Positions 6,946-24,082 of a stretch of 34,367 bases of DNA are shown in pieces. The first letter of the stretch is position 1, and each line of letters opens with the position of its first letter. This DNA comes from a virus: positions 1 to 34,367 of IMG/VR virus record IMGVR_UViG_3300012920_000008; one strand, 5' to 3'. The translations under genes and the position numbers were made by a program. The notes below the pieces were generated by a model. That model saw nothing but the letters and a program-made list of their open reading frames with translations. It had not been told where the DNA came from and searched no databases.

Positions 6946-6983
6946 CACTGATTCTCTCACTCACACTCGCTAGTATCCCTCAC

Positions 6984-7397: not shown

Positions 7398-7407
7398 AAA
7401 ATTAATC

Positions 7408-7620
7408 CTAAATTTTGTTTATAAACTTAATTTTATCTTTAAATCTGATTTCTAACAAACTAACAAGCTCACTAAAATTTGATTGACCTTTACGTATTTC
7501 ATCAAGTAGTTCTTGGTATTGTTTCTCGCTGTACTTGAGTTCGCCTATAGCATCTGAAACGCTGGTAAGTAAAAAAATGAAATTGTTATGTTTGTTTTTT
7601 AGATCAATGGTTATTTTCAT
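7408..7620 (-). CDS. Small lysis-cassette protein, unknown
   Basis: 70 residues from ATG 7620, which overlaps the stop of the holin gene and follows AAAGGA at a good distance. The protein is charged and helical (KYSEKQYQELLDEIRKG) with Phe/Ile-rich stretches and no clear membrane segment. It lies between holin and endolysin. I cannot assign a function. Confidence 0.65.
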   Translation of the reverse strand: MKITIDLKNKHNNFIFLLTSVSDAIGELKYSEKQYQELLDEIRKGQSNFSELVSLLEIRFKDKIKFINKI

Positions 7621-7994: not shown

Positions 7995-8317
7995 TTGCTA
8001 GCCCCCTTTGCTTGATAGGCACTCGCGCCAAAGAAACTGGCGACAAGGGCAGACACCCCAATGAAGTAAGTGCCACTTATGTCGGCGATAAGTTCAGCCG
8101 CTTTATCAAGTCCAACAAGGCTACATATAAAAATACCAGAGGGATACAGCAGTAAGCCAAACAGCGCAAACCACGCCATCTTGCGGATCGAATCGCGTTG
8201 AGCGTCTTCATCCTCCATCTTGCGACGGCGATCCTCAAGCTCAATAAGAGCAAGCTCGTGCGGATCGATAACGCCGTTGTTGTTCGTGTCATACTTCTCT
8301 AGTTCTATCTCTGTCAT
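7991..8317 (-). CDS. EF-hand membrane protein of the lysis cassette
   Basis: 108 residues. An N-terminal 12-residue loop DTNNNGVIDPHE (residues 10-21) carries every position of a canonical EF-hand (D1, N3, N5, G6, I8, D9, E12). A charged helix (about 22-45) and two membrane segments follow (about 48-68 and 83-103). It is coupled by ATGA overlap to the holin. Calcium or magnesium binding is predicted. It could be a holin partner or regulator; that role is inferred from position only. Confidence 0.72.
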   Translation of the reverse strand: MTEIELEKYDTNNNGVIDPHELALIELEDRRRKMEDEDAQRDSIRKMAWFALFGLLLYPSGIFICSLVGLDKAAELIADISGTYFIGVSALVASFFGASAYQAKGASK

Positions 8318-8499
8318 GTACTGCCTCCGATCTGGTCAGTAGGGATACAGACTACGTTGTAATTTATAAGAGGCTTGCCCATTTCTTGAGTCAACGTCTC
8401 TCCCGCGTACAGACATTCTATATGTGTTGAGTGTACGCCTAATATTCTGAAATAAAAGGTCATGTCTGCTACGAATATTCCCATCAGCACCCAAGACAT
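8314..8499 (-). CDS. Small lysis-cassette protein with N-terminal hydrophobic segment
   Basis: 61 residues from ATG 8499, which overlaps the previous stop (TAATG) and follows AAGGA. Residues 1-20 (MSWVLMGIFVADMTFYFRIL) could be a membrane anchor or signal sequence. The rest is polar with two Cys and no lipobox, so I do not call it a spanin although its position would allow one. Confidence 0.6.
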   Translation of the reverse strand: MSWVLMGIFVADMTFYFRILGVHSTHIECLYAGETLTQEMGKPLINYNVVCIPTDQIGGST

Positions 8500-8969
8500 T
8501 ACCGTCCTTTCATCGAAATAATTGCTAGTAAAAGCCAAATGCCCAAGCCAACAGTAAGACAGCCGATAAAGACAGCCAGAAGAACAAGCAATCCATCCTT
8601 GATGGCTTTTTTCTTAGCAAGTTTCCGAGCCACTTCACGCTTTCGAGCCTTCTCCCGCATCTCTTTGCGGTTCCTCATAAAAGTCTCGTAGTCTTTGAGG
8701 AGGTTTGCCCGCCCTCCCCAAACCATCAGTTCTTTTATGCGTCGTTCCTCTTGGGCTATGTTTTCGAGCGCCCAAAACGCTTCATCGTCTCCGTTCTTTG
8801 CATCCCTTTCGAGTTCTTCTTTGGCATCACTGAGCTTAGTTAGGTCTTTGCCCAAACAACTCCCAACGGATTTAATATCGTGAATATTTGTGCAGAGTTC
8901 GCGGATACTAGACACCGCCTCATTAGCGGCTTTGACCGCACTGACAGCGAGGCCGATCTCAGCGAACAT
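8499..8969 (-). CDS. Coiled-coil protein with C-terminal membrane anchor
   Basis: 156 residues. The N-terminus is alanine-rich and helical. A long charged helical region (about 45-125) includes a very basic run (REVARKLAKKKAIKD). One strong transmembrane segment follows near the end (GLLVLLAVFIGCLTVGLGIWLLLAII). I recall similar proteins beside holins in other phages but know no function. A role spanning cytoplasm and inner membrane during lysis or entry is plausible. Confidence 0.7.
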   Translation of the reverse strand: MFAEIGLAVSAVKAANEAVSSIRELCTNIHDIKSVGSCLGKDLTKLSDAKEELERDAKNGDDEAFWALENIAQEERRIKELMVWGGRANLLKDYETFMRNRKEMREKARKREVARKLAKKKAIKDGLLVLLAVFIGCLTVGLGIWLLLAIISMKGR

Positions 8970-9164
8970 CTAGGTCACCTTCATCAACACAGCAACAAGC
9001 ATGGCGATAATGCTACCCGCTGCACCAATCATCACCGCCTCAATTCTTTTTATTCTGAGGATAGTTTCTTTCCAACGCTCGGCACAAACAGCTTCGTGCG
9101 TACCTAGATTAACTTCCATCTTATCCAGACGGATATGTGCCGAGGCCGTGGTGCGGTTATTCAT
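8970..9164 (-). CDS. Small tail-anchored protein, XhlA-like architecture
   Basis: 64 residues: a helical N-terminal 40 residues (RLDKMEVNLGTHEAVCAERWKET) followed by one C-terminal membrane segment (MIGAAGSIIAMLVAVLM). This arrangement is shared with XhlA/hemolysin-like holin accessories, though I see no specific family match. The ATG at 9164 overlaps the end of the upstream 22-codon reading frame, suggesting coupled translation. Confidence 0.65.
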   Translation of the reverse strand: MNNRTTASAHIRLDKMEVNLGTHEAVCAERWKETILRIKRIEAVMIGAAGSIIAMLVAVLMKVT

Positions 9165-9225
9165 CACTCAGCCCAAGGAACACCAGTGACAGTGTGCGCT
9201 CAAGTTGTGCAATTGTGAGTTCCAT
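9157..9225 (-). CDS. 22-residue microprotein or leader peptide
   Basis: A short frame (MELTIAQLERTLSLVFLGLSDE) starts at ATG 9225 with an excellent Shine-Dalgarno (TAGGAGTAAAC). It ends inside the start of the next gene, which itself has no good Shine-Dalgarno. It may be a leader that delivers ribosomes to the membrane protein, or a functional amphipathic peptide. It fills the only gap between tail and lysis genes. Confidence 0.5.
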   Translation of the reverse strand: MELTIAQLERTLSLVFLGLSDE

Positions 9226-9233
9226 GTTTACTC

Positions 9234-10832
9234 CTAAATTAAACTAAATCCATTAACAGCATCATAAAAATTACCTATCACCCACAGTTTTGTTTTGTCG
9301 GGTTTTAAATACATTCCTTGGGGACTCACTTCGTATAACTGAATCGCTTTGATTTTTTCGGTAGTCTTGGTAAACGATGCTGTCGATAAGTCCCATGCAG
9401 TACTCATTGCATACTCATGGAGTCTATCGGTAGAAGTTCCCAGAACATAAAACTTCAGTCCAGACTCTGTTATAGCCAAGGATTTCGGTTGAGTTTCTTG
9501 CGATGTAACACTAAATGATGTTGTAAACGATGCGGTGGAAATATCCCACGCAGTACTCAACGTATATTCATATATGGAGTCGTTTGTTTGGCCTGCCACA
9601 AACATTTTTGTACCGTCTGGTTTAAACTGTACAGCTTGTGGGCCTGTGTCTTGTGAGGCTACCGAAAAGCTTTGCAAGTAACTAGCGGTAGTAACATCCC
9701 ATGTTGTACTAAGATCATATTCATCAATATCGTCAGTAGAACCATCTGATACATACATCTTTGTTCCATCAGGTTTAAATGTTATATCAGTTGGGAATCC
9801 GCTGTTCGATCCTAAATTTTTTTGTGCCGGGGCGCCTCCGCTTGTAATGTCCCAAGGGGTACTTAATGTGTACTGATTAACTCGGTCACCTTGACTTCCA
9901 ACAACATACAACTCAGTCCCATCTGGCTTAAATGCGACGCCAAGTGGAGTATTCTGAACTGACGAAACATCTAAATAATCTTTGCTTGGAAATTGATATG
10001 ACAGTGTTGAAGTGTCCCAAGGAGTTGAAAGATCAAAGGCTTGAATTGAATCTTTTGATCGTCCCAAGAGATACATCACTGATCCGTCCGATTTAAATAC
10101 TATAGCTTCTGGGTTACCGTCAAATTCGCTCAATGCAACATTATTAGTAAACGACGCAGTCGAAACATCCCATGCGGTGCTTAAACTGTACTGATTAAGC
10201 TCATCAACTTCTTTTCCACAGATGTACATGATTGTTCCGTCTGTTTTAAAAGCAATTCCAGAAGGAATTGTTTCTTGACTGCTCAGATCAAAACTTTGAG
10301 TCAATGACGTTGTTGAGACATCCCACGCAGAACTTAAAGCATACTCATACACTTTATCATTGGCGCTTCCTACGATGTAAAAACGAGTTCCGTCAGGTTT
10401 GAAAAAAATATCTTGTGGCGCACCATCATTTGATTTTGTATTAAAATTTATTCCATTGTATGACGCAGTTGATACGTCCCACGCAGTGCTTAAATCATAC
10501 TCTCTAACACGGTCACTGCTGGTTCCAATGGTATACATCTTTGTACCATCATCTTTGAAAAATACTCCAGTTGGAACTGCTTCTTGTGCATTAACTGAAA
10601 ATGTGTTCTTAAGTGTTATATTCGATAAATCAAACGGATTATATAAATCAAATTCTGCTACTTTATCTAGCGTGTACCCGGCAACATAAAACTTTTTACC
10701 ATCATCTCGAAAGTACAATCCAGCAGGATTGGATTCCCCCGTCCGAGAAAAAATACCAATGTGAGTACCGTAGATGTGATTTAACTTATCAATGTCCGGT
10801 ACTTTGAGCTGTGACGCTATAATCGAAAACAT
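9234..10832 (-). CDS. Tail protein with ten beta-propeller-like repeats
   Basis: 532 residues from ATG 10832 (ATGA overlap with the upstream fibre gene). After a 30-residue N-terminus the protein is built of ten repeats of about 51 residues, the last partial. Each has the pattern P-x-G-I-x-F-K-P-D-G-T-K-M-Y followed by V-x-G, then D-x-V-x-Q-Y-D-L-S-T-A-W-D-V-S-T-A-S. The repeats resemble propeller blades such as YVTN/NHL types. Its place at the end of the tail genes suggests a fibre tip or receptor-binding protein. The same repeat is found inserted in the nozzle protein at 20433-23465. Confidence 0.8.
   Translation of the reverse strand: MFSIIASQLKVPDIDKLNHIYGTHIGIFSRTGESNPAGLYFRDDGKKFYVAGYTLDKVAEFDLYNPFDLSNITLKNTFSVNAQEAVPTGVFFKDDGTKMYTIGTSSDRVREYDLSTAWDVSTASYNGINFNTKSNDGAPQDIFFKPDGTRFYIVGSANDKVYEYALSSAWDVSTTSLTQSFDLSSQETIPSGIAFKTDGTIMYICGKEVDELNQYSLSTAWDVSTASFTNNVALSEFDGNPEAIVFKSDGSVMYLLGRSKDSIQAFDLSTPWDTSTLSYQFPSKDYLDVSSVQNTPLGVAFKPDGTELYVVGSQGDRVNQYTLSTPWDITSGGAPAQKNLGSNSGFPTDITFKPDGTKMYVSDGSTDDIDEYDLSTTWDVTTASYLQSFSVASQDTGPQAVQFKPDGTKMFVAGQTNDSIYEYTLSTAWDISTASFTTSFSVTSQETQPKSLAITESGLKFYVLGTSTDRLHEYAMSTAWDLSTASFTKTTEKIKAIQLYEVSPQGMYLKPDKTKLWVIGNFYDAVNGFSLI
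9391..10500 (-). repeat. 153-bp tandem coding repeats
   Basis: The plus-strand marker TCCCA beginning the W-D-V/I-S part of each repeat falls at 9391, 9544, 9697, 9850, 10015, 10168, 10321 and 10477. Spacing is 153 bp six of seven... counting in order 153, 153, 153, 165, 153, 153 and 156 bp. Repeats are in frame and diverged at the DNA level. Confidence 0.85.
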
Positions 10833-12391
10833 CAGATTGCTTGTAAATCTCCAACTAAAACCCACGTATCTGTTGCGAGTTTGATTGCACTTGCGGCTGA
10901 CCACTGCGCTCTTAACTTCAATGACTGTGCGCTGTTAACTGTTACGCCTGATCCTGCGGCTACTGTGACCTGCCCTGCTCCCTTGGCGAGTAAATCAATC
11001 TTAGTTCCTGTTGGATACGCCACAGATGAGTTAGGTGGGATTGTTACAGTGATGGCAGAGGCGTTATCCAGTGTGACTAACTTGGAACGATCTGCTAGGA
11101 CTGTTGTATAGGTTGTGCCTGTCTGAGCGTTGATATCTATATTAGAAGTTACAGAGCCTGCATCGACAGTGCCAGAGACAGTGATGTTTCCTGTAACGTC
11201 TACACCACCAGATTGAGTCTTTATCTTTTCAGAGCCGTAGTGATAAAGAATTGCGTCACCAGTAGAACCATCTGCTCTGAAGTAATTTGCTGTACTGCCA
11301 GAACCATCGTCGCTGTTGATGACTACATCTTGATCGTTTGCAAACTGGTTAAGTTGAAGAGAGCCAGTGTTATTATTTATTTGCGAATGAGTGCCGTTGT
11401 GTTTAATAACTAAATCAGTACCAGCACCAAACTGGGTTGTAACGTTATCACCAAGCACAATATTGCCGGTCATCGTGCCGCCAGCTTTAGGCAGTGCCGC
11501 ATCAGCCGTTGTTCCTTGGGCCGCTGTAGCATAGTCAGAAGAATCGAAAGCTTTTACTTGCGCGAGATTTGTAACCTCTGAATCCATCAATGCGCCAGCG
11601 GCGGCTACATTTGTGGCATCTGTTACATCAGCGGAAGCCTCGATGCCGTCAAGTTTAGTGCCGTCAGCAGCTATGTTTCGGCCATCTACAGTGCCCTTTG
11701 GCGTACCAATCATTGAGATATCGCCATTTACAATTAAGCTTCCGTGGCCTAGTCCACCTAAACCGGTGATATTGGTTTGACCGTAAAGGTAATTTATACC
11801 TAGTGTTATTTCGACTTTTTTTTCGTCTAAGCTTTCGTCTTCTTCTCCACCAATCCAAAATTGAATTACATCTCCTGAATTTATAATAGTTGTTGCGAAT
11901 CCTCGTAAGGCACCGTTTGAATCCCTAGGCTTTGGATGCAAGAAAACCAGACGATTTAAAAGGAATATAAAAAACGGAATGCTCATTCCGTATATTGATG
12001 GAGGATCAAACAGAGTGGTTTTATTGAACTCTAAAACATTTGTTCCATCATTTTTTGCGTTATTGGAGCTTGCTTGCGCTGATCCAGCAAAAACAATTTT
12101 TTTCCCGTTAGATTGCAAGTCTCCACCAAGTTCAGGAGTTAAATCCTCAACAACATTATCCAAAGCATTTGGATTAGCAGTAGCTGCTGAAGCTATGCCA
12201 CTTAACTTTACATTATCCGCATCTAGTTTAGTTTTGTCTCCGTCAACAAAAGCGCCTTCAGCAAGAATATTTTGTTTTCCTGCGTCCTCTGCAACCAGCT
12301 CTATGAAATTGTTGTCTAATTCCGAATTACTCAAAGGAGCGTTCACATTCGTGACACCAGTGCCGTTTGTTTGTCTGGTCTTGATTGCCAT
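10832..12391 (-). CDS. Tail fibre protein
   Basis: 519 residues. The N-terminus (SNSELDNNFIEL) is typical of fibres that attach to podovirus tails. Collagen-free fibre motifs follow, including DGTKLDGIEASADVTDATN (about 243-261) and ALPKAGGTMTGNI. The last 90 residues (SKLVTLDNASAITVTIPPN to DTWVLVGDL) match a common fibre C-terminal domain. An unusual hydrophobic stretch lies at 136-152. GGGAG precedes the ATG. It would bind the host surface, together with the propeller protein downstream. Confidence 0.8.
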   Translation of the reverse strand: MAIKTRQTNGTGVTNVNAPLSNSELDNNFIELVAEDAGKQNILAEGAFVDGDKTKLDADNVKLSGIASAATANPNALDNVVEDLTPELGGDLQSNGKKIVFAGSAQASSNNAKNDGTNVLEFNKTTLFDPPSIYGMSIPFFIFLLNRLVFLHPKPRDSNGALRGFATTIINSGDVIQFWIGGEEDESLDEKKVEITLGINYLYGQTNITGLGGLGHGSLIVNGDISMIGTPKGTVDGRNIAADGTKLDGIEASADVTDATNVAAAGALMDSEVTNLAQVKAFDSSDYATAAQGTTADAALPKAGGTMTGNIVLGDNVTTQFGAGTDLVIKHNGTHSQINNNTGSLQLNQFANDQDVVINSDDGSGSTANYFRADGSTGDAILYHYGSEKIKTQSGGVDVTGNITVSGTVDAGSVTSNIDINAQTGTTYTTVLADRSKLVTLDNASAITVTIPPNSSVAYPTGTKIDLLAKGAGQVTVAAGSGVTVNSAQSLKLRAQWSAASAIKLATDTWVLVGDLQAI

Positions 12392-12405
12392 AATTTAAAC
12401 TCCCT

Positions 12406-12873
12406 TTATGATGCCGACAAAGATATGGTCCAATTAACTAACATGCTGTCTGTGGCAGACATATTAACCGGACTAAAAACAATGCGGCAGAGCATTAAAG
12501 CATTGTTGCTAGAAGAATTAAAAATTCCTGCCTCAGTGATTGCCCCAATAACATCTCCGGGGCTACTAGGTGTAAAAGAAGCTTGGTATGTAATACTAGC
12601 GCCAGTTATAGATGGAAAGGAATTATCAAACTGTTTTGATGAACCTACTTTAGACGTAAGCCCAGTTTGGTTATTAACCACTGCAGTTGCTCCAGTTCCT
12701 AAAGCAATGTGCGACATTACATTTTGTGATGTTCCTTTCATTCTTTGTAAAATGTGATTCAACCCATTATTGACAACTAAATTGTTTTTTTGCCTTGTTT
12801 CTTTAATCTTGCCATTTTTATCTCTAACGACAATTTTGACACTTCCCTTTATCTTAATATTATCATTAGACAT
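12406..12873 (-). CDS. Tail/baseplate-associated structural protein
   Basis: 155 residues: VVNNGLNHILQRM, MSHIALGTGATAV, ASITYQASFTPSSPG and ITEAGIFNSSSNNALMLCRI form the signature of a phage tail-associated family I recognise by pattern but cannot name exactly. The final strands (MLVNWTISLS) suggest an all-beta fold. AAGGAG precedes the ATG. It lies between the fibre and two other small tail genes. Confidence 0.65.
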   Translation of the reverse strand: MSNDNIKIKGSVKIVVRDKNGKIKETRQKNNLVVNNGLNHILQRMKGTSQNVMSHIALGTGATAVVNNQTGLTSKVGSSKQFDNSFPSITGASITYQASFTPSSPGDVIGAITEAGIFNSSSNNALMLCRIVFSPVNMSATDSMLVNWTISLSAS

Positions 12874-12885
12874 GTTGATCTCCTT

Positions 12886-13260
12886 TTAGAATTCTTGCTC
12901 TTGACCTACGTAGTTTTCTGCAAAATAACTCATGTCACTTGTGTAGTTTTGCGTTCTAGTAAAACCCGAATCAGACAATACAGCAGAATCTGAAAATGCC
13001 TTGGTAGTCGTCAACACATGCAAGTCTGTTAGCGATAATGTGTCATCGAATTCCTTAAACTTAAAAAATTTCCCAAGTAAAATTTTTGCTTTAAGAGCAT
13101 TTTCTTGAATAGAAATTTTAAGTTGCTGATTGTTTAAAGAAATGCGCAACATATTTTCAGTTGCGTTTAACATCAATCGAGTAGTTTTATTTGCAAAAAC
13201 AAGATTAGTTGCTGTGATCGTTGCGGCCTTAATGGTGTTACGAATAACTTTCAGTTTCAT
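12886..13260 (-). CDS. Small tail-module protein, unknown
   Basis: 124 residues. The N-terminal 70 residues are basic with repeated hydrophobic positions. The C-terminus (SGFTRTQNYTSDMSYFAENYVG) resembles a short motif seen in other marine-phage structural proteins, probably a docking segment. It overlaps the upstream gene by ATGA. No domain is assigned. Confidence 0.6.
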   Translation of the reverse strand: MKLKVIRNTIKAATITATNLVFANKTTRLMLNATENMLRISLNNQQLKISIQENALKAKILLGKFFKFKEFDDTLSLTDLHVLTTTKAFSDSAVLSDSGFTRTQNYTSDMSYFAENYVGQEQEF

Positions 13261-13589
13261 GCAAAGTCTTCTCGCAAGACAAATTGAATTATTTCAAAAA
13301 CCGTTTCTCTAGTTGAGTCTGCGTAAACGACTTCAACCTCGCCTTCATAATCTCCTTCTGAAATATTAAGTTGGCTTCCGCTAAAATTAAATACAACCTC
13401 GCCCTTGGTTGCATCCACCCCAGCAAACGATCCAGTAAGCGAAAAATTAACGGTTGTCGAGAGCGCGGGACGAAAGTGCAAACTGATCGTTGCCCCCGAA
13501 AGATTTTGTGCTGTTCCATCATCTCTGGTTAGTGTGACCTTTATCTGTGGTTTGGTGTCGCCTTGCACCAAGTAAATGACATCGCTCAT
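13257..13589 (-). CDS. Baseplate/tail protein with Ig-like beta fold
   Basis: 110 residues: YLVQGDTKPQIKVTLTRDDGTAQNLSGATISLHF and the following strands resemble the N-terminal domain of BppU-like baseplate proteins and other phage Ig-like modules. GGAGGA lies just upstream of the ATG. It probably links the tail tube to fibres. The assignment rests on pattern resemblance. Confidence 0.6.
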   Translation of the reverse strand: MSDVIYLVQGDTKPQIKVTLTRDDGTAQNLSGATISLHFRPALSTTVNFSLTGSFAGVDATKGEVVFNFSGSQLNISEGDYEGEVEVVYADSTRETVFEIIQFVLREDFA

Positions 13590-13598
13590 TGGTTCCTC

Positions 13599-16544
13599 CT
13601 ACTTGGCCGCGTCAATTTTTGCCTTCAGCTCTGGATAGATCATGTAGAGCTGCTGCCTCGCTGCTGACCGCTGACTTGCCACAATTGCCTTTAAATCGTT
13701 TAACTTGTCCTCGTCATCTTGAATACCAAGATATTCTTCTTGGTATATCCTATTCTCTAAACGATCCTTTAGCGTAGAGAAGACATCATAGCCCGTATCT
13801 TCTGGAAGCCTTCCAAATGAGTCCAGAGTATTAGTCAGCTCAATGTACTTCAACCTTTGATCTCTAGTCAGCATAACGCCGCTAATTTTTTTGGGGGTAC
13901 GCCCCACTGAACTGCCGAGACGCATAAACTCTGCATCAATTCCTGAATACTTTGTGTCCTTAATTCTGACAGGAGACCAGAACTCCCACGAAGCGCCTGT
14001 TCCTGCTTCTAAAACCTCATTCCACTCATTGACCGCCGGGGGTAAGTCTTTGCTAAAAAATGGATTGCGTGACTTGGCTTTTTCTAAAGCGATATACGCT
14101 CCACGCATCCAAGCTGGTGCATCTGTTACATCCATATCTGTAAATGGAACCTGACCTTCTGGCAACCCAACAGCTCGTTGAGTTGGATCGCCAGCTCTTT
14201 CAACCCCGGCCATGAATGAACTGCCACCAACAACAGGTACTGTACTGATAGCGGCGCTAGCTATTTTTTCGGAGAAAAGCTCTAACAGCAATTCTGCTTT
14301 AATTTTAGGGTCACGCTGGGTCAAGGCAAGCGACAACTCCTCTACTCCCTGCAACATTGGCTGGGTCATTGCGTACTCTGAGATTGCCAAAGTAAATGCT
14401 TGCGCTACCCCGCCTAGAGTGTCGGCGTCCTCTTCGTATTGAGAGTAGTATGCAAAGTCTGCAGCCATTGCCAAAAGTCCAGACACAGGATCAAATCGAG
14501 AATAGGTAATAGACCTGTATGTGCCATCCTCTTCGCCTTCAATGCCCATTGACTTAGCTAACTCTGAGCCTTTCCGAACATTAATTGAGTAGGGCTGTAT
14601 TCTTTGATTAGCTAATGACCGGCGGCCTTCGGGACTAGTCGGTCCAGCTCCCATGACAATGACATCTTGATTTTCATCAGTGTCGTAAAGACCAGATGCA
14701 AGATACGTCATAGCACCCATGATCGCAGACCCGGTTGCAATTTTACCCAAAGCAATGTCGGCATCTCTGCCGCCAGCCATAATCGCTTCTCTGATTTTTG
14801 GATGGGCGACAGCAAGAGGAGTGCGCTCAAAAACTGCTGTCATAATATTGACCGGGGTTCTAAAGAACGGCACAAACAGTTTGACCAAAGGATGCGACAT
14901 AAAATGTTGCGCACCGGATAGTGCTTCCAGATCATTTTGGAAGGTCATTACCCTTGCAGCTTCTTTTGTGTCTGCAACCATTTGCGGCGGAGGATTGTTG
15001 AGCAGCTCCACACGCCTCTGCCCAGATATCTCTCTGGCCTCTGCTGCAGTCTTGCCAGCCTGAATTGCTTGATCGTATGCGTCACCGGCTTGCATTTCGA
15101 CAAGCTGGTGTAGCTTCATTCTGGCCCCGGTAACTTTAAAGTATTCGTCTTCCATTAGAAGAGCGCGGCTGGCTAACCTTTGGCTTACACCAAAGATGTT
15201 GACAGAAGCGGCCATAAGATTGCCTTTGCGTATCTCTTCTCCTATGACTCGCAGATCGCCGGTTGTGCCGATAGCTCTGCGTCTACGGGTGTCGATCTTT
15301 GAAGCAAAATCACCAGCCTCTTCGGTAATCGCTGTTTTTCCTGCAATCAATATCGCGTCAAAGAAACCGGCCCGGATGCCTTCTAGTTGCGCAATCATTT
15401 CTCTGGCGCGAACCTTTTCTGCCTTGCCAATGCCTAGACCGCGTCTTCCAGAGCTAATTGCTGCGGCCATGCCAGTTTCTAGTACTTGCTGATATCGGAA
15501 CATTGTATTACCAGCAATGTTCACAGCATGAGTCACCGGAGAAGATAAAAGTGAGTTGATCCAGATTTCCATGACAGCGTCCATGCCACGGCCAATCAAG
15601 CCGCCCTTAGCCATCTGTATTCGCTTGTTTGGATTATCTAAGACCATGTACATGCGCAGCATGTGATCAATATCTTGAGCGTTCTCAAGCCCGAATAATT
15701 GATCTGCTCTCGACGCAGCGTCTGGGAAACCAGCTTTGTTTAAAGTGCGCAGTGCATACAATGCTCGGCCAGCTTCTGATCCAGCGCCAGAAACACTTGC
15801 TGCTATTTGGGCCTCAAGCCTAAGTAATTGCAAAGACCTGTTTCGTAATTCTTCTGTCGGCGTAGAAATGTATTTTACAATAGAAGCGCTCGTTTCCTGC
15901 ATGACACCGTCTAAGGCAACAATACCCGCGACTAGCTCTTCTGCGTTTGCAGATTCACCGGGCGCTCTGGTTGCCCAATCATGCACTAGCTGATCCATGT
16001 TCTTGTTCTTGGCTAAAGCAAGAATCGCGTCCATATTTAGCGTTCCGCGCCGCTGATGCTCAAACAAATCCTGATTAATATTTCTCAGGGTTTGCATGTA
16101 CTCCTCATAACTTGGCACTTCGTAAACAGTGTCAATGCCACCAATACCCTTAATCTCAGGGTAATTAATACCTTTGACATAGTCCCCGCCCAAAGCCTCG
16201 TTAAGACCGGCAATCATCTCGGGATCTTCTCTGATAACTAGCCGTCCACCAACTTCTTGGATCGCCTTATCTGGCAAGTCTCTACCAGCTCTCTTCTCTG
16301 CCTGTAGTGTTTTCTCAGACAAGAACTTACCAATACCCCCAACAAGGCCAGCAACCTGTAGTGGCTCGTCTGTGTTTTCTATTGGCTGCTCTTCTAGGAA
16401 ATCTGGTTGATCAATAGGGCTTTCATCTGCAATTAGACTAGGAGCTTGATTCTGATCAGGATCTTGACCACCAAAGACGGCCTCTGTAGCAATAGTGCCA
16501 GCTACCGTTTTATCTATTTTTTTCTCTAGTTCTTTGCTGATCAT
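13599..16544 (-). CDS. Large internal virion (ejection) protein
   Basis: 981 residues, the last and largest of three ejection-type proteins following the nozzle, as gp16 does in T7. The first 60 residues are disordered and acidic. The region SPVTHAVNIAGNT (335-347) and a later FVPFFRTPVNIMTA are hallmarks I associate with large internal proteins of marine podoviruses. A hydrophobic stretch (IATGSAIMGAMTYLASG) could enter the membrane. No lytic transglycosylase motif is visible. It should form part of the DNA ejection conduit. Confidence 0.75.
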   Translation of the reverse strand: MISKELEKKIDKTVAGTIATEAVFGGQDPDQNQAPSLIADESPIDQPDFLEEQPIENTDEPLQVAGLVGGIGKFLSEKTLQAEKRAGRDLPDKAIQEVGGRLVIREDPEMIAGLNEALGGDYVKGINYPEIKGIGGIDTVYEVPSYEEYMQTLRNINQDLFEHQRRGTLNMDAILALAKNKNMDQLVHDWATRAPGESANAEELVAGIVALDGVMQETSASIVKYISTPTEELRNRSLQLLRLEAQIAASVSGAGSEAGRALYALRTLNKAGFPDAASRADQLFGLENAQDIDHMLRMYMVLDNPNKRIQMAKGGLIGRGMDAVMEIWINSLLSSPVTHAVNIAGNTMFRYQQVLETGMAAAISSGRRGLGIGKAEKVRAREMIAQLEGIRAGFFDAILIAGKTAITEEAGDFASKIDTRRRRAIGTTGDLRVIGEEIRKGNLMAASVNIFGVSQRLASRALLMEDEYFKVTGARMKLHQLVEMQAGDAYDQAIQAGKTAAEAREISGQRRVELLNNPPPQMVADTKEAARVMTFQNDLEALSGAQHFMSHPLVKLFVPFFRTPVNIMTAVFERTPLAVAHPKIREAIMAGGRDADIALGKIATGSAIMGAMTYLASGLYDTDENQDVIVMGAGPTSPEGRRSLANQRIQPYSINVRKGSELAKSMGIEGEEDGTYRSITYSRFDPVSGLLAMAADFAYYSQYEEDADTLGGVAQAFTLAISEYAMTQPMLQGVEELSLALTQRDPKIKAELLLELFSEKIASAAISTVPVVGGSSFMAGVERAGDPTQRAVGLPEGQVPFTDMDVTDAPAWMRGAYIALEKAKSRNPFFSKDLPPAVNEWNEVLEAGTGASWEFWSPVRIKDTKYSGIDAEFMRLGSSVGRTPKKISGVMLTRDQRLKYIELTNTLDSFGRLPEDTGYDVFSTLKDRLENRIYQEEYLGIQDDEDKLNDLKAIVASQRSAARQQLYMIYPELKAKIDAAK

Positions 16545-18211
16545 TTTTTGGGCCTCGTTTTTCTTACCCTTTTGCCATTGCTCGTTGGGCTACTCGCGTC
16601 ATCATCTCTTCGTACTCTGGCTTGTCCATCGCTGCCTCCGCTTCTTCTTGACGACGATCCCAATCTTCTCGCGTCAATACCCGAGGCTTCGATGATGTTG
16701 TCATCGTCTCGGATGACGATTCTTGGCTCACCTTTTCCGGGGTTGTTGTTGACTTTGGTGTAAGCATCTGCTGCTCCTTCCTCTACTAATTGATCAAACG
16801 CTTTAGTTGGATCTGTTCCTACTTTTGCCACTTCTGGCGGAATTAATCTGTCCTTACTTACAAACCTAGAATACATTCTTTGCAATGCCACTTCTGGGTC
16901 AACCATCATGTCAACCAAGGTAATCCTGTATCCAAACTTTTTGGCTGGCCCGATATATCCTGAAATAATGTTCTCTGCCTTACCGCCAACCATTGGCACA
17001 ACAATGTTGTTACCTGTTCTAATAGATGCTCCAAAGACTAGCTTGTTAATTTGTGAGCTTTCCTCGTGAACCACGTTAGACCCAACTCCGTTATCGTATC
17101 CCGGAATCAGCTTCTTAGCTTCGTCAGCATCAATTATCATTGCACCTTTGTGTCTAGCAATTGGATTGGCCATTTTGCTTTTACCGGCTGCGGGCGGCCC
17201 AACAATGATAATCAACTCTTTATCTTGCTTAACTGGATTTGCCGGGGCAGGCATTTTGTCATCAGTCCAAGCAAATGTCTTAGCGTGATTTACTAACCAA
17301 TCAGTTGCTGCTTCGTAACCTTTAATTTTTTCACCAGCTTCAGATGTATAGTTTCGTGACTCTTGCCACTCTGAGGTATTCCAAACACCTTGCTTTTTGG
17401 CAACCTCTTCAGTGGTTGGCCTCGACAACATTTCATTGGTTGTGTTCTCAACGTGAGGATGTTTCTCCAAAGTTTCAGAATTGGCTTTTGAATCGAGCAA
17501 CCTTTTGAAATCTGGTTTTGTGGAAACATACCCAGTGCTTTGAATGAATTCACCGTCTTTGGTCATAATGAACTGACCAGTTTCTGCGTCTGGTGAGCCG
17601 GGAGCAAGCTGTAAATCATCTTTTGATCCGGGGACTTTTTCCAAAGTGCCGGTTGCGCTTGGCGTTCTCGGAGTTTCAAACGGCTCACCTACCATGCCTT
17701 TTAAAGTTTTGGCTCCTTTGACCGCACCCTTGGCTCCAGCAGTTGCAGCTCCACCAACGCCAACAAATGACCCTGCTTCAGCTCCTGCTTTAATGCTTTC
17801 CTTAATTTGATCCGAAACAGGAAGAATATCTGCTGCTTCTCGGATAAATTTAAGAACGACTTCCGACCCGTAGTCTTCGGAGATGCCAGCCATAGTATTC
17901 AAGAACGTATCAAGCTTCTGACCCTCTTCCGCTGTCAGACCTTCATACGCTCCAGCGAGCAGTCCTATGATGTCTCCGGGAGCGCCGACTGTTCCTGCAA
18001 CCGCACCGGGGACAATACCACCAACAAGTGTTAACGCAGCGCCGCCCATCGCTTCGGCAAAACGCTGTAGCCCTTCTTGTGGTGTAATGAAGTTTTCACG
18101 GTTTATATCATCCTGTGTATACAGGTTACCGTCGCCACCCCCATATAGCTGTACCCCAGACTGACCCAGCTCAATAGATTCTGCAAGTTTTTGCTCTAGG
18201 TCATAGTTCAT
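16541..18211 (-). CDS. Ejection-type protein fused to a zeta-toxin-like kinase domain
   Basis: 556 residues. The first 160 are typical of an internal virion protein, with a Gly/Ala-rich hydrophobic stretch (56-90). A linker leads to a P-loop kinase of the zeta/UNAG-kinase type: Walker A GPPAAGKS at 338-345, IIDADEAKK (Asp361/Asp363 region), VHEESS at 381-386, and YSRFVSKDRLIPP at 447-459 with the paired Arg expected for ATP binding. Zeta toxins phosphorylate UDP-N-acetylglucosamine and block wall synthesis. No epsilon-like antitoxin is seen. After residue 510 the sequence is low-complexity and basic, while another frame looks more natural (see 16564-16767). Confidence 0.8.
   Translation of the reverse strand: MNYDLEQKLAESIELGQSGVQLYGGGDGNLYTQDDINRENFITPQEGLQRFAEAMGGAALTLVGGIVPGAVAGTVGAPGDIIGLLAGAYEGLTAEEGQKLDTFLNTMAGISEDYGSEVVLKFIREAADILPVSDQIKESIKAGAEAGSFVGVGGAATAGAKGAVKGAKTLKGMVGEPFETPRTPSATGTLEKVPGSKDDLQLAPGSPDAETGQFIMTKDGEFIQSTGYVSTKPDFKRLLDSKANSETLEKHPHVENTTNEMLSRPTTEEVAKKQGVWNTSEWQESRNYTSEAGEKIKGYEAATDWLVNHAKTFAWTDDKMPAPANPVKQDKELIIIVGPPAAGKSKMANPIARHKGAMIIDADEAKKLIPGYDNGVGSNVVHEESSQINKLVFGASIRTGNNIVVPMVGGKAENIISGYIGPAKKFGYRITLVDMMVDPEVALQRMYSRFVSKDRLIPPEVAKVGTDPTKAFDQLVEEGAADAYTKVNNNPGKGEPRIVIRDDDNIIEASGIDARRLGSSSRRSGGSDGQARVRRDDDASSPTSNGKRVRKTRPKK
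16564..16767 (-). CDS. Overlapping reading frame, 67 aa (nested gene or frameshifted C-terminus)
   Basis: This frame is +1 relative to the zeta-domain gene. Its ATG at 16767 follows GAGGAAGGAGCAGCAG, a strong Shine-Dalgarno at normal spacing. The product has a Ser/Thr-rich N-terminus and a well-formed charged helix (TREDWDRRQEEAEAAMDKPE). In the main frame the same DNA encodes an unnatural Ser/Arg-rich tail. Either a separate small protein is made here, or the main protein is meant to shift frame near 16690. Confidence 0.5.
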   Translation of the reverse strand: MLTPKSTTTPEKVSQESSSETMTTSSKPRVLTREDWDRRQEEAEAAMDKPEYEEMMTRVAQRAMAKG

Positions 18212-18212
18212 T

Positions 18213-19895
18213 CTATTCCTCGCTTAATTTTTTGAATCTTATGTAGTCTTGCAAAGCTTTTGTTACAGGACTATCAGCGCCAAATTGTGGATCAGCTATG
18301 GCTTTCTGCAAAAGCACTTCTGGATTATCTGATTTGTATTTAGCTTTTACTTGAAAATAAGCAGTTCTTGCAGCTTTCCTCGTAGCTGCAGTTCGTCTTT
18401 CATCGGTAGCCGTTTGTATCAGAGGCTTTACAATATCCATGGGGTCAACGTCAGGCTCTTCTCGCAACTTAAAAAACAACTTGGATTCTATAGCTGCAAC
18501 TTCTTGCATCGCCTGACGATCTATTGCGTCTGTGTTGTAAAGAGGCTTGTCTGGTAAACCTATCTGACGCTTAACCTCTTTCATAGCGTTCTGGTAGTTT
18601 GTCTTGCGCGACAAGCGAACTTTTTCTAAAAGTGATACATAGGTATCACTGGTGATCTTGCCTTGTGTCCTGACCGTGTTGACGGCTTTCTCGGTAATCG
18701 TGTTGTTAATAAACATACTATTTAGGCGTTCTACTTCTGCGTCGTCATCAACGCCTCCGTCTGTCATCATTGCGTCAGCGTAAGAACTATACTTATCAGC
18801 GTCGTATACTGACAGCTCTTCTAGTGCGTCCTTCATCCCTTGAACATCACCTTTAAGCTTTGCAGAAACTAACATAACAACTGCGTCGTCAGCCTTTTCA
18901 CGCATCTCTCTATCGTTTCTGGCATCTTCAGCAGACTCTAAAGCGTTCTGAGTGCTGATTGCTGAAACAATTTGTTTTCGCGTTTCAAGGCGCAATGCTT
19001 GGTTCATGCTATCCAAAACAGTTTGAGCTTGAGTTGTTAGATGTCCTTTCTGCCCTTCCAAAGCTAACAAGCCTTTGCCGGGGTCTTGGATGACATCAGA
19101 AACAATAGCGTTTACCTTTGCTGTGTTTACCCTCTGCTCAAGCTCATTTAGCTTTGTTTGAGTTAAGGCTGGGTCATCAAGCTGCACACCCTTTGCTGTA
19201 ATTCGATCTCTAAGCGACTGCACATAATCGTCAATCGAAACAAACTCACCATTGTTTATAGTCCCGCCATTGATAACGACGTTATCAACTTCACGTATGT
19301 CTTGATCTATTGCCGCCCTAAAGACTGATTCCTGATCATCTTTAATGCGTTGCATTTGGGTTTTTGTAGCAGATAAGAATGCTGAATTGCCTGTTGTAGC
19401 TAACGACGCTTTAAGCTTTGATGCGGCGGTTGGGCTGACATCCTGCAAAGTGCTGCCATAAGTATTTTGGATTTCTATTAATCCAAGCTGAAGCTGGGAC
19501 AAATCAATTTGTTCTGCTTCAAACAGTGTTTGGAGATTGCTAATTGAGTCACGAGCCTCTTTCTCCATGTTGACAGAGAGTGTTTCCAAAGCAGCCGTTC
19601 TTGCGGCTGTCCCAAAAACAGAAAACGTATCTCCCGGCAAAAGTGACTCAGGGTCTGCCCCTGACTTTTTAGCCTCTTCAAGCTGCTCTTTTGTCGGCGC
19701 TCTAGTTGCTCCGTACTCTACGCCCTTAACTTTGGCTTGCTGTTCAGCAACCCCAAAAGCAGCCCTAGAGACGCGGTCCATCGCAGCAGAAAACGCCTCG
19801 GCGCTTCTTGATGCCTGTGTCAGCGCAGCTCCGGGATAACTCGGGCTGACGACTGATAGCAAACCTTCTTTTCTGTAACGCGGTAGTTCAGCCAT
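18213..19895 (-). CDS. Internal virion protein, helical
   Basis: 560 residues, almost entirely helical with many Gln/Glu/Lys heptads and no membrane segment. It lies between a gp14-like protein and the zeta-domain protein, so it is the middle ejection protein (T7 gp15 position). It starts MAELPRYRKEGLLSVVSPSYPGAA; the opening segment is probably a docking arm. Start and stop abut the neighbours. No enzymatic motif is seen. Confidence 0.72.
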   Translation of the reverse strand: MAELPRYRKEGLLSVVSPSYPGAALTQASRSAEAFSAAMDRVSRAAFGVAEQQAKVKGVEYGATRAPTKEQLEEAKKSGADPESLLPGDTFSVFGTAARTAALETLSVNMEKEARDSISNLQTLFEAEQIDLSQLQLGLIEIQNTYGSTLQDVSPTAASKLKASLATTGNSAFLSATKTQMQRIKDDQESVFRAAIDQDIREVDNVVINGGTINNGEFVSIDDYVQSLRDRITAKGVQLDDPALTQTKLNELEQRVNTAKVNAIVSDVIQDPGKGLLALEGQKGHLTTQAQTVLDSMNQALRLETRKQIVSAISTQNALESAEDARNDREMREKADDAVVMLVSAKLKGDVQGMKDALEELSVYDADKYSSYADAMMTDGGVDDDAEVERLNSMFINNTITEKAVNTVRTQGKITSDTYVSLLEKVRLSRKTNYQNAMKEVKRQIGLPDKPLYNTDAIDRQAMQEVAAIESKLFFKLREEPDVDPMDIVKPLIQTATDERRTAATRKAARTAYFQVKAKYKSDNPEVLLQKAIADPQFGADSPVTKALQDYIRFKKLSEE

Positions 19896-20431
19896 TAAGT
19901 CATACCTCCCATACCGCTATTATAGAAATAAGTGCCTTGACCGTATGTGACGCTGCCTTTGGGTGTAGGGCTGGGAGGCTTGCCACCGCCAATCATCGCG
20001 GCGCTAAACGCGGCCTGACCAATCTGGCTAATAGCACCTATTCGTGCTTGATACATTGCTTGCGCACCAGCTTGTCTTGCATCAATTGCAGTCAGGATGC
20101 CACTCAGTTGAATCAACTCGGCATTATCCTGAACCATCAAAAGATCTTCTGTTCCAGCTCCGTATGCAAAAGTCTTGAGCATTGCCGGAGTTCCCGACGC
20201 AGCATCAATAGAACCGGCTGCTGACCTTGCATTAATTGTCGCTGCATACGCCCCCATCTTTTCCATGATATTAAGAGCCTTGCGCTTCTCATTTGTTTCA
20301 GATTGACCAGCTTGCAGCTCTGCAATCCTAGCCTTTACACCAGCTAACTTTTGCTGAATTTTGCCAGATTGATAAGTGCCGTATGCACCAAGTAGTTTTG
20401 TCGTTACTGCAATTGCTGCTGCTGCTTCCAT
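19895..20431 (-). CDS. Internal virion protein, gp14-like
   Basis: 178 residues with alanine-rich helices and a Gly-rich C-terminus (GGGKPPSPTPKGSVTYGQG). Size, composition and position directly after the nozzle gene match T7 gp14, the first protein ejected into the outer membrane. RSAAGSIDAASGTPAML is a motif I recall from podovirus proteins of this class. Confidence 0.75.
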   Translation of the reverse strand: MEAAAAIAVTTKLLGAYGTYQSGKIQQKLAGVKARIAELQAGQSETNEKRKALNIMEKMGAYAATINARSAAGSIDAASGTPAMLKTFAYGAGTEDLLMVQDNAELIQLSGILTAIDARQAGAQAMYQARIGAISQIGQAAFSAAMIGGGKPPSPTPKGSVTYGQGTYFYNSGMGGMT

Positions 20432-20432
20432 T

Positions 20433-23400
20433 TTACTGCCCTGTTGATACTTCGTAATCGAGCGATAACACAGTCATATCTAACGGTTCGCTCTGGGTAA
20501 TCGTGATTGTCGCGTCTCGCGTGTATCCTAGCAAGGAACCTTTTTTCTTAAAGCCTGTAAACGGAGTAATAAATCCGTTAGTGTCAGCATCAAACGCGAT
20601 GATCTCCCCATCTATGGTTAGTCCTTGCGTCTCAAAAAGCTTTGCGGTCACTGTTAAGATTTTCTTGCGATATGCTCTGATTGGACCAGAAGACAGCCTA
20701 GCTTCAAACGGCAAGATTTTAATTGTCGATGTATACGGCAATCCAACTTCAAAAGAATTAGTTGCTGCTGTAGCAAATGAAATAGCTCCACTTGAAACAG
20801 TTTTGTCTGACTCAACAACGCCGTTTCTTAAAACATCAAGCGTTTTACCTTCAAGATATGTTAATTGAGAAACGCTTGCTGTAGAACCTGAAACCGTTTC
20901 GTGTTTTGCAGAATCAGTGTTTAGGGTTTCTACAAAACGCTCAACATAATATTTTACGGCGCCGTTAATCGTGCGTTTTACGACTGTATAAACATCAGAT
21001 ATATCTACACCAACTTCAACGTAATTGCCGTCTGTCGTCCACTCGCTGGGGGCAACGATCTGCTCTGATCGCAATAACGTAAAACAAGCAATCGAACCAT
21101 CGTCGTCATTAACAATTAGTACACGATCACCCTCATCAGTTGACGTAGCCTTGCGAACTGCTAAAGACGACGGATTTTTTAACAAGTGAGAAGACAGCAA
21201 ACTGATTCTAGTAGAAATGTAACCAGCCACCGAATCATTAAATAAGAACTCAGACAAAGTCTTACCTTGGCGCTGGATAAATAAAGTCGATCCGTCAATA
21301 TTGACAACAGGAATGCCCGGCTTGACACCATTAGATGTCTGCTCCTTGACCGACAAGGTTGATGGCGTGATCGGATCGCCCAATGTTTGCGGAATGTAGA
21401 ACTCACCGCCAGTGGTAAATATCTGTAAGTTGCGTCCTGAGTACAGATCTACAATTGCATTAAACCTGCCAGTATCTAATGTAGCTTCAAGTCCGGCATC
21501 ATCTAATTGCTCGCCCGGATCAAAGTTAAAAAAATCAGAAACTCGGCTACCCCAAAGTGTTGATGGACGAGACTTTGAGCCACCCAAAAACAGCCGTCCT
21601 TCGTGAAACACGCAGGAACGAGGCCAGCCACGAGTGTCTGACCAAACATCTTCGTACCCGTACTCTAGCTCCCAGTTACCTGATGTTATTGCGTCAGTAT
21701 CAAAAAACGGTATTTCAGTAACAACTTTAACCACTGTGTCGCTTACAAACTCTGTGACCCGAGCGCGTCCAAATCCGTTTTTAGCAACAATATATTCGTC
21801 AACACTGTCCTCACCGAAAGCCCTAACCTGATACTGTGACGTATTATCAGGGGTAGTGGTAAACGCTGGATAAACAGTTGCTACCTTGGTGCTAGCGACA
21901 TAACTAGCAATATGCCTTACCTGACCGCTTCCTGTCCCGGCAGTGATTTTTATGTGCAGCCCAGCACATTGATTGTCTGAAGTATATGAAGACGACGACT
22001 TCAGCGTAATCGTATTTGATGTCCCTGCCTGAGCTGTTCCGGTATCTGTCGTCACAGATGACGCAGTCAATGTGATGTTACCTGTCACATCTGAAGGAGT
22101 AATTGTGTATTGAGGATCATCAATATTTAGGGTGTATGCAAATTTTGGAATATGAGAAAAAGTTAAATCAGAAACTGTCCAGTTGCTGTCCCCTGCACCG
22201 CGCTGAATAAACTGTGGATGCATATCTGGATGCACCAGAATTAAAGAGTCGGCTGCTTGAGTAAAGTTAATTGTATCAACATACCTATTACGCAGTGCGG
22301 GTATTTCAAAATAATTATTAGATGTGCCATTGATGTTCGTAACTAGCGCACCGTTTTTGAAAACATACATACGCCCTTGAGTCAATACCAACATATAAGA
22401 ATCATCAACAGAAAACTCAAAGTGAACCATTTTGAACTTTGGGACAAATGCATTAGGTACAATGATTAAGTCATTTTGAGAAGATGTTGTTCCCTCAACG
22501 TAGTAATACGTTGACTCGTCATCACGCACATAAAATGCGTAATGGACTTCTGGTGGATGACTAAATGCACTGGCTGAGTCATTTCGTGACGCTGTAGAAA
22601 GATCGTATGCCGTAGCCAGCTCGTACACTCTTTCTCCAATATAAATTTTTGAACCATTGTTAGCAAAAGAGAAATACCACCGATTATCACCTCGTATCCC
22701 GACATCAATCTCATGGCTCTGAGTTTCACCAATAAAGTTATAAGCAGACGCAAGATTATATTGCACCAATTTCATTTCATCATTGTTGTCTATCCCCGGA
22801 TTGTTTGAGCCAGATGTTGAATCAGACAACAAAATAAATGCTTTAGTGCCATCACCATTAAACTTGATGTCGTATGTTCTAAAATTTGCATGGCTGTCGT
22901 ATAGAACTTGTCTTGTTACTGAAACACCAGCAGTCGACAAATCCCAAGCTGTACTCAACACAGATTCTGAAATATTGCTTAATGACGACGCGTCGCCACA
23001 GCCAAATATTCTTAGTCCGTCATGGCTCATCGTAAGACCGTTAAAAGCTAGGCCATGAGCAGAGGTTGCTGTGTAAGTTATGTTTGTAACATCCCAAGCG
23101 GTTCCCATTGAGAACTGATTAACATAATGCTCAGTGCCAGAGTCGCCGGTATTTAAAACGTACATTTCTGTACCGTCTGGTTTAAACCAAATGCCATTAT
23201 CGTTTATAAACTCAGTGCCTGTGTGCGACGCAATTTGAATTGCAGCATTGAATGGCAAAAGATCAACAGTCTCGTAATCATTTGTCGTAACTTCTGCAAC
23301 AAATTCAGAACCATCACGCCTTGTAACACCACCCTGTGGCAGTATCGTTACATTTTGCGCTATCTGCAGCCCGTTATAGTATTGCTGAAGATCAATCCGG

Positions 23401-23465
23401 GCATTGATTTTTGGATCAATTTCGCCAGTAGTGAAATTAGATTGTACCGAGACAATCCTGCTCAT
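20433..23465 (-). CDS. Tail nozzle protein (gp12-like) with inserted propeller-like repeats
   Basis: 1010 residues. The N-terminus (NFTTGEIDPKINARID, ILPQGGVTRRDGSEFV) is diagnostic of podovirus nozzle proteins. The normal sequence seems to resume at about 343 (FKMVHFEFSVDDSYMLV) and continues with GWPRSCVFHEGRLFLGG, another hallmark. Between residues about 75 and 342 lie four to five degenerate repeats (FKPDGTEMYVL, STAWDLSTA, FANNGSKIYIG) of the same family as the protein at 9234-10832. The ATGA overlap with the adaptor gene is typical. Confidence 0.88.
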   Translation of the reverse strand: MSRIVSVQSNFTTGEIDPKINARIDLQQYYNGLQIAQNVTILPQGGVTRRDGSEFVAEVTTNDYETVDLLPFNAAIQIASHTGTEFINDNGIWFKPDGTEMYVLNTGDSGTEHYVNQFSMGTAWDVTNITYTATSAHGLAFNGLTMSHDGLRIFGCGDASSLSNISESVLSTAWDLSTAGVSVTRQVLYDSHANFRTYDIKFNGDGTKAFILLSDSTSGSNNPGIDNNDEMKLVQYNLASAYNFIGETQSHEIDVGIRGDNRWYFSFANNGSKIYIGERVYELATAYDLSTASRNDSASAFSHPPEVHYAFYVRDDESTYYYVEGTTSSQNDLIIVPNAFVPKFKMVHFEFSVDDSYMLVLTQGRMYVFKNGALVTNINGTSNNYFEIPALRNRYVDTINFTQAADSLILVHPDMHPQFIQRGAGDSNWTVSDLTFSHIPKFAYTLNIDDPQYTITPSDVTGNITLTASSVTTDTGTAQAGTSNTITLKSSSSYTSDNQCAGLHIKITAGTGSGQVRHIASYVASTKVATVYPAFTTTPDNTSQYQVRAFGEDSVDEYIVAKNGFGRARVTEFVSDTVVKVVTEIPFFDTDAITSGNWELEYGYEDVWSDTRGWPRSCVFHEGRLFLGGSKSRPSTLWGSRVSDFFNFDPGEQLDDAGLEATLDTGRFNAIVDLYSGRNLQIFTTGGEFYIPQTLGDPITPSTLSVKEQTSNGVKPGIPVVNIDGSTLFIQRQGKTLSEFLFNDSVAGYISTRISLLSSHLLKNPSSLAVRKATSTDEGDRVLIVNDDDGSIACFTLLRSEQIVAPSEWTTDGNYVEVGVDISDVYTVVKRTINGAVKYYVERFVETLNTDSAKHETVSGSTASVSQLTYLEGKTLDVLRNGVVESDKTVSSGAISFATAATNSFEVGLPYTSTIKILPFEARLSSGPIRAYRKKILTVTAKLFETQGLTIDGEIIAFDADTNGFITPFTGFKKKGSLLGYTRDATITITQSEPLDMTVLSLDYEVSTGQ

Positions 23466-24082
23466 CTTCTAACCTGTATCAACGAAAAATCTTGTATAAC
23501 TTCGTTTTGCTTGGAGCTGCCATCAATGTTGGACGCAGTTCTAAAGAAACCTCCACGGTTGTTTTCTTGTGTGGTTCCCAGAGCTATTGTTCGCCAATAA
23601 TCAGCTTTTGTGATTTGATCAGTCACTGTTTCAGCAAAATGCCAAGCTAGTTGATACTTGAGGAGCTGCACAAAATACTTTGGCAGCTTTGATTCATCGA
23701 CATCTCGCTGGTAGTCGATAACAATTGTTTCTTGATTAGTAATCAATACATCGCCAAGAATTTCCCAGCCAACCTGTATTGGTGCAGCGCCAGACTGCTC
23801 TGAGTTGAAAACTGCTTTAACACCAGAGATGCGATGCACGTCGCTTGGAAGCTTGAATTGATTTTTATATTCGTTGACCGGAGATGTGCTGCCTTTAGTC
23901 AACTTTTGTTTGGTCAACGTAAAAGACCACGGGTACATTGCCAGCGTGGTTACCTTGATGTCTTCGTATAAACGATCACAAACAATAGATGCGTCTGAGG
24001 AATCGAAAGAAGCCAGTGGAGCTTCGCCCAGCATAATCAGGGCATCCGAACATATTGAAAGTTTGGTATCACCTGATGCCAT
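23462..24082 (-). CDS. Tail adaptor protein (gp11-like)
   Basis: 206 residues: LSICSDALIMLGEAPLASF at the start and YPWSFTLTKQKL and NQFKLPSDVHRI further on are the usual landmarks of podovirus tail tubular protein A. It forms the ring between portal and nozzle. GAGG lies upstream of the ATG. A hairpin separates it from the upstream decoration-protein gene. Confidence 0.88.
   Translation of the reverse strand: MASGDTKLSICSDALIMLGEAPLASFDSSDASIVCDRLYEDIKVTTLAMYPWSFTLTKQKLTKGSTSPVNEYKNQFKLPSDVHRISGVKAVFNSEQSGAAPIQVGWEILGDVLITNQETIVIDYQRDVDESKLPKYFVQLLKYQLAWHFAETVTDQITKADYWRTIALGTTQENNRGGFFRTASNIDGSSKQNEVIQDFSLIQVRR

Follow-up and report, generated by a model that had tools for sequence, protein, structure and literature searches.

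A zeta-type kinase domain on a putative fourth ejection-cassette protein at an exchangeable position in a T7-like podophage genome

The window, by which we mean the whole stretch of DNA that was analysed, is a virus record of 34,367 bases with a perfect direct repeat of 123 bp at its ends (1-123 and 34245-34367); from this repeat the record is probably a complete genome. A search for near-identical DNA among phages returned no match. The structural genes encode a T7-like portal (PF12236), a Phage_capsid_2 head protein, tail tubular proteins A and B (TTA and TTB) and proteins resembling gp14 and gp16 of T7. On the minus strand, the TTA-like gene (23462-24082) and the TTB-like gene (20433-23465) lead into a gp14-like internal virion protein (19895-20431; phrog_418, 4.4e-12), a gp15-like ejection protein (18213-19895), the gene of interest here, which we call the slot gene (16541-18211), and a gp16-like internal virion protein (13599-16544; phrog_6651, 5.3e-24). 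The order TTB-gp14-gp15-slot gene-gp16 is the same in relatives. The gp15-like assignment, directly upstream of the slot gene, is made by synteny; Pfam and PHROG searches with this protein gave no match worth naming, and it shares 24% identity over 170 residues with gp26 of Methylophilales phage MEP301.

MEP301 is the closest isolate, with an identical gene order and with 49.5% and 39% identity to the window in TTA and TTB, respectively. Its gp25, of 161 amino acids, sits between the gp15-like gp26 and the gp16-like gp24/gp23. In the annotation of MEP301 two overlapping ORFs (7960-11059) together make up the gp16-like protein, which a single ORF encodes in the window. The TTB of the window carries an insert at residues 77-343 that is absent from MEP301, and a β-propeller-like protein of 556 amino acids encoded elsewhere in the window (9234-10904) is 30% identical to the corresponding part of the TTB of one relative (L009). 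Further matches in the window are to a YqaJ-like recombinase (5795-6739), to HTH_36 (32364-33086) and to AAA_25 (33668-34333), the last in a gene at the end of the record.

The slot gene encodes 556 amino acids, starts with ATG, contains no internal stop and is preceded by a Shine-Dalgarno-like AGGA; its stop overlaps the start of the gp16-like gene in the sequence ATGA. The product combines an N-terminal domain, N1, a putative adaptor, with a C-terminal zeta-type kinase domain. N1 spans residues about 51-169 (17705-18061, minus strand), with a glycine-rich hydrophobic stretch at residues 54-88, and the first 180 or so residues of the protein correspond to MEP301 gp25, a short cassette protein that occupies the same position. 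A direct blastp comparison of N1 with gp25 was not significant (E = 0.46). The homology is drawn instead from the shared position, start and motif together with an iterated profile, which matches MEP301 at 2.8e-23, although repeated rounds over one set of loci can make such values too favourable. The suggestion of the first-pass annotation that the N-terminal part looks like an ejection protein is thus upheld, in that gp25 stands alone at the equivalent position in MEP301.

The same annotation proposed a zeta-type kinase at residues about 330-500, and here several lines of evidence agree. The domain occupies residues 269-505 (16697-17407, minus strand), taking the span aligned to chain B of the Zeta structure 1gvn. 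Pfam Zeta_toxin (PF06414) matches residues 327-464 with 54.7 bits against a cut-off of 22.3 (E = 1.2e-14). A profile built from 30 rows of family members finds, in the PDB, Zeta 1gvn at 9.3e-16, PezT at 7.4e-10, Pnkp1 at 2.4e-8 and AvrRxo1 at 1.4e-4. The profile is needed for this result: a phmmer search of the PDB with the slot protein as a single sequence missed Zeta and returned only P-loop noise. An AF2 model made from 36 sequences (the window and viral contigs) has a mean pLDDT of 76.6, with ten-residue blocks at 85-98 across residues 231-510, and a basic C-terminal tail of low confidence (residues 524-556; 16544-16642, minus strand). Compared with known structures by VIA-align, the model matches Zeta 1gvn_B with Z 16.3 and an rmsd of 2.8 over 198 residues, PezT with Z 15.3 and AvrRxo1 with Z 14.4. 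The C-terminal domain of the slot protein is a zeta/PezT-type kinase fold; from these Pfam, profile and fold matches the fold is clear and the exact substrate is not.

Among the enzymes that share this fold is a bacterial polynucleotide kinase, that of Clostridium thermocellum, which the model matches with Z 14.3 over 161 residues. Together with the Pnkp1 profile match and a match of the slot protein to phrog_505, 'polynucleotide kinase' (3.7e-5), this could indicate a kinase of nucleic acid ends that helps to repair DNA or RNA at the time of entry. We consider such a role distinctly unlikely, since the profile match to Pnkp1 is weaker than that to Zeta and the aligned stretch shorter, and the Pfam scan shows no adjoining ligase or phosphatase domain.

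The catalytic residues were mapped by HMM alignment to 1gvn, and conservation was counted over 38 family members, the window included. All of the motifs named in the first-pass annotation lie where it had placed them, again on the minus strand: the Walker A sequence GPPAAGKS at residues 338-345 (17177-17200), in which Lys344 corresponds to zeta Lys46; IIDADE at residues 359-364 (17120-17137), with Asp363 equivalent to the catalytic Asp67; HEESS at residues 382-386 (17054-17068), where zeta has Thr92 and Tyr94; and the lid YSRFVSKDRLIPP at residues 447-459 (16835-16873), in which Arg449 and Arg455 correspond to zeta Arg158 and Arg171. Lys344, Asp363 and Lys366 are present in 38 of the 38 members and Arg449 and Arg455 in 37 each. 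His382 (38/38) and Glu384 (37/38) are equally well conserved, and both differ from zeta.

The position of zeta Glu116 is occupied in the window by Pro406 (16994-16996, minus strand), an equivalence read from the HMM alignment, which has no gap in this stretch, and not from superposed coordinates. Proline is found here in 28 of the 38 members, the window among them, followed by glycine (5), aspartate (4) and alanine (1). The four aspartates belong to a MuF-fused protein of cyanophage PSS2, a halovirus protein, a Bacteroides-phage protein and the protein of locus L043. Other zeta positions are altered in the window as well, with Glu100 replaced by Lys390, Thr118 by Val408 and Arg120 by Gly410. 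In zeta, alanine mutants of Lys46, Asp67, Glu116, Arg158 and Arg171 are without toxicity, and the Glu116 mutant is neither toxic nor active as an ATPase (PMC6356619).

These replacements bear directly on whether the domain is a true UDP-GlcNAc kinase like Zeta and PezT, which would weaken the wall at the time of injection in the way suggested for MuF-zeta fusions. Zeta and PezT are the top matches in both sequence and fold, and Iyer et al. (2017; PMC5512222) propose that the zeta-like kinases of polyvalent and MuF proteins weaken the wall. Nevertheless, the loss of a glutamate that is essential in zeta, the three further replacements and the nearly equal fold matches of AvrRxo1 and the bacterial polynucleotide kinase make this assignment unlikely in our view, and the cell-wall target put forward in the first-pass annotation loses its footing. 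With Pro406 at the Glu116 position the enzyme need not be a UDP-GlcNAc kinase; we tentatively prefer, with low certainty, a substrate of nucleotide type that either replaces UDP-GlcNAc or is used in addition to it.

Purifying selection acts on the kinase parts of the relatives. The dN/dS ratio is 0.044-0.049 in three pairs (L009/L020, L026/L027 and L026/L028) and 0.09 (with saturated dS), 0.125 and 0.147 in three others; a value of 0.273 comes from one near-identical pair with almost no differences. Were the domain purely structural, either a relic or a plug of the ejectosome without catalysis, one might point to those relatives whose slot protein consists of the N domain alone or lacks a C-terminal domain that can be recognised. 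The retention of catalytic residues in nearly all of the diverse members and the low ratios in the first three pairs run counter to this idea, which we judge very unlikely.

A protein search of viral contigs with the window gene found a single relative and a search of a genome collection found four; an alignment-based search of viral contigs by the kinase yielded 36 loci. Fifteen of these 36 place the kinase in a cassette led by TTB, 12 of the 15 with recognised gp14 and gp15, and the remaining 21 lie in other contexts or lack TTB in the stretch that was fetched. To avoid selection on the kinase itself, we took the 80 top-ranking loci from a search by TTB that found at least 581. The slot gene is complete in 41 of the 80, and four of these 41 genes encode the kinase; in 10 loci it is partial, and in the other 29 no slot gene is within reach. 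Adding the earlier loci, the window and MEP301 gave a set of 69 slot proteins, 58 of them complete, that range from 161 to 1293 amino acids. They consist of an N-terminal domain followed by a changing C-terminal domain, the N domain being alone in MEP301; domain classes were assigned by hand. N1 occurs in 22 of the 69, and the other N-terminal types are N2, N3/N4 and N5.

The C-terminal domains, or payloads, are of several kinds. A Pfam scan of 30 slot proteins identified Zeta_toxin in five (L009, L012, L021, L034 and L120), DUF7178 in four (L048, L049, L051 and L107), PBECR5, an RNase-like domain, in one (L046, 2.8e-13) and ART-PolyVal in two, both below the Pfam cut-off (L109, 6.2e-6; L078, 2.4e-5). 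The remaining 18 gave no domain worth naming, so that the term 'effector' applies on evidence to a minority of the proteins. The two ART-like sequences have HGSG and YGYGLYFTD stretches in common, which we take to recall ADP-ribosyltransferase motifs. No usable match came from profile searches of the PDB with the ART-like, L064-type or DUF7178 payloads, and the repeat-protein rows among the results trace to one 18-residue stretch. We considered whether the DUF7178-type payload (L049, 14362-16758; also L061, L107 and L108) resembles HhH-GPD DNA glycosylases and rejected this as insufficiently supported; the AF2 model is poor (pLDDT 57) and 8-oxoguanine glycosylases are matched with only Z 3.2-4.5. 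Both PBECR and ART belong to the effectors described from polyvalent proteins (PMC5512222). The PBECR5-type payload of L046 has a match, with 32% identity, in an 8.5 kb gene (5262-13781) of Acinetobacter phage Ab9 that follows soon after internal virion proteins. The fusion of a kinase to an ejection-cassette protein, as first annotated, is borne out, and what had been missed is that several interchangeable payloads occur at this position.

How the two halves of the slot protein are inherited was examined on trees of the neighbouring genes. The gp15 tree used 48 of the 69 rows, omitting eight duplicate or near-identical contigs, two without a recognised gp15, one without an N class and ten cut by a contig end; L020 was kept although it too is cut. 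On this tree the N class changes eight times, against 24.7 expected for shuffled labels. Proteins whose payload was labelled 'none' do not form a genuine class, as some of them have up to about 200 further residues, and the test was therefore rerun without this label. For the 28 rows with a recurring payload class the N class changes three times, the minimum being three, and the payload nine times, the minimum being five; the shuffle mean for the payload was 13.4 and none of 500 shuffles gave a count as low. The payload is thus not free of the gp15 tree, its changes being rarer than with shuffled labels. Restricting the rows to the 15 with N1 or N2 gave one N change (minimum 1) and seven payload changes (minimum 4), with six of 500 shuffles as low. 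A gp16 tree of 22 rows, 'none' included, gave four N changes (minimum 3) and ten payload changes (minimum 6). ART-like, L049-type, L052-type and L064-type payloads are found on both N1 and N2, and the kinase is found on N1 and N3. By these counts gp15 and the N domain are passed on together and the payload is the more mobile part, with the reservations that linkage of neighbouring genes contributes to the tracking of gp15 by the N domain and that the trees are quick ones with some weak forks and long branches.

Individual pairs of phages show crossovers at the domain boundary of the slot protein. L009 and L020 share 95% identity in the kinase part, 77% in gp15 and 40% in the slot N domain. In L007 and L008 the C-terminal part is 96% identical and the N domain 35%, and in L049 and L061 the C-terminal part is 97% identical, with 25% for the N domain, 28% for gp15 and 26% for gp16. 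L052 and L056 are 98% identical in TTB and 97% in the slot C-terminal part, with 24% in gp15, 24% in the slot N domain and 26% in gp16. The converse is seen in L090 and L078, where gp15 (96%) and the slot N domain (98%) are nearly the same and the slot C-terminal part and gp16 are each 25% identical. When identity is computed in 40-residue bins, the shift falls close to the boundary between the domains, and the DNA matches end and resume there. The window itself shares 59% identity in the slot N domain and 22% in the C-terminal part with L046, the PBECR5-bearing locus. With L044 it shares 84% in TTB but only 29% and 22% in the slot N and C-terminal parts, so its nearest tail relative has a different slot protein.

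These observations lead us to regard the slot protein as probably, though by no means surely, a kinase payload at an exchangeable slot, made late, packaged, ejected and acting on a small molecule of the host. The protein would be a fourth member of the T7-like ejection set, in which N1 links it to the ejection machine. The computations show the kinase fold with its conserved catalytic residues, the purifying selection on the kinase of relatives, the place in the cassette, the swapping of domains and the tracking of gp15 by the N domain; that the protein is packaged and ejected, that it is active in the cell and what its substrate is are what we infer. An active zeta-fold kinase would be made late and packaged with gp14, gp15 and gp16; the N domain would dock in the ejectosome and the C-terminal enzyme would be carried into the cell, ahead of or with the DNA, where it would phosphorylate, as infection begins, a host nucleotide, nucleotide-sugar or nucleotide cofactor. 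Recombination would exchange the C-terminal enzyme and retain an N domain matched to gp15. Against ejection, the folded kinase would have to unfold for passage through the portal and tail.

Zeta proteins are most familiar as members of toxin-antitoxin pairs, and the slot gene might accordingly be a toxin-antitoxin or superinfection module merely located in a late operon. We give this only a slim chance. As first annotated, the genome has no antitoxin, at least of the epsilon type, which was the type tested: Epsilon_antitox (PF08998) has no match at E ≤ 10 anywhere in the record. The overlap of the slot-gene stop with gp16 leaves no space for a downstream immunity gene, and the N-terminal part is a cassette protein that stands alone in MEP301. 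For a packaged and ejected kinase a missing antitoxin would be no paradox, because the virion has no ATP supply and the protein would appear late; an enzyme made late and packaged may need no antitoxin.

Several known systems invite comparison. Polyvalent proteins are late-region phage proteins, predicted to be injected, that bear effector domains (Iyer et al., 2017; PMC5512222), and the examples given in that paper include PBECR RNases, ARTs and also zeta-like kinases, which in phages are joined to MuF; zeta kinases are thus in print for phage MuF fusions and for conjugative elements. The likeness drawn in the first-pass annotation is a fair one, as N1 and the kinase are disparate domains joined in one protein among virion genes, between gp15 and gp16. 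The carrier differs, being an ejection-cassette protein of T7-like podophages and not a MuF, portal or giant protein, and in the slot the N domain and payload exchange independently. The MuF polymorphic toxins of temperate phages have a constant virion N-terminal part and variable C-terminal toxin domains (PMC5576092), an arrangement that the slot proteins resemble. The MuF domain (PF04233) is not matched in the slot protein of the window by Pfam at E ≤ 1, and no small immunity ORF lies between the slot gene and gp16, whereas small ORFs follow 89.4% of 191 MuF toxin genes (PMC5576092). Like the kinases of Epsilon/Zeta and PezA/PezT, the window protein has the fold and the equivalents of Lys46, Asp67, Arg158 and Arg171; unlike them, it lacks equivalents of Glu116, Thr118 and Arg120 and an epsilon antitoxin, and its kinase is the C-terminal domain of a cassette protein. 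Gene order and neighbours are shared with the gp14/gp15/gp16 set of T7, to which the cassette of the window adds a fourth protein with exchangeable enzyme domains. Exchange within this set has a precedent in the lysozyme domain, which is swapped between gp16 and gp15 homologues according to a review of T7 ejection proteins (PMC8954989).

Among the open-licence PMC articles returned by our literature searches, none had a title or abstract opening that dealt with the ejection cassettes of podoviruses as carriers of zeta kinases or of exchangeable payloads. Given that MuF-zeta fusions, MuF toxins and lysozyme swapping are known, and that we did not find a fourth, polymorphic ejection protein described, the slot is best seen as a variation on an established theme. 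By analogy, it can be read as the equivalent in podoviruses of MuF polymorphic toxins and of polyvalent proteins, with an ejectosome-matched adaptor and exchangeable effectors. The wider proposal, that T7-like marine podophages trade polymorphic effectors (a kinase, RNase-like and ADP-ribosyltransferase-like enzymes and several of unknown kind) on a fourth ejection protein whose N-terminal domain is matched to the ejectosome and follows gp15, these effectors being delivered at infection and free of antitoxins because they are made only late and packaged, we hold to be evenly balanced between right and wrong. If it is true, an abundant class of podophages has polymorphic toxins of its own, borne by the ejection machine, and the interval between gp15 and gp16 is a defined place for anti-host or anti-defence enzymes in uncharacterised podophage genomes. 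A simple question would then arise for each: which domain lies between gp15 and gp16, and how does it act in the first minutes?

The same kinase family occurs in other settings. In the minor head protein of cyanophage PSS2 the kinase, 30% identical, is fused to a Phage_Mu_F domain, and in L043 (597-4580) one protein contains both a NUDIX domain and a zeta-type kinase.
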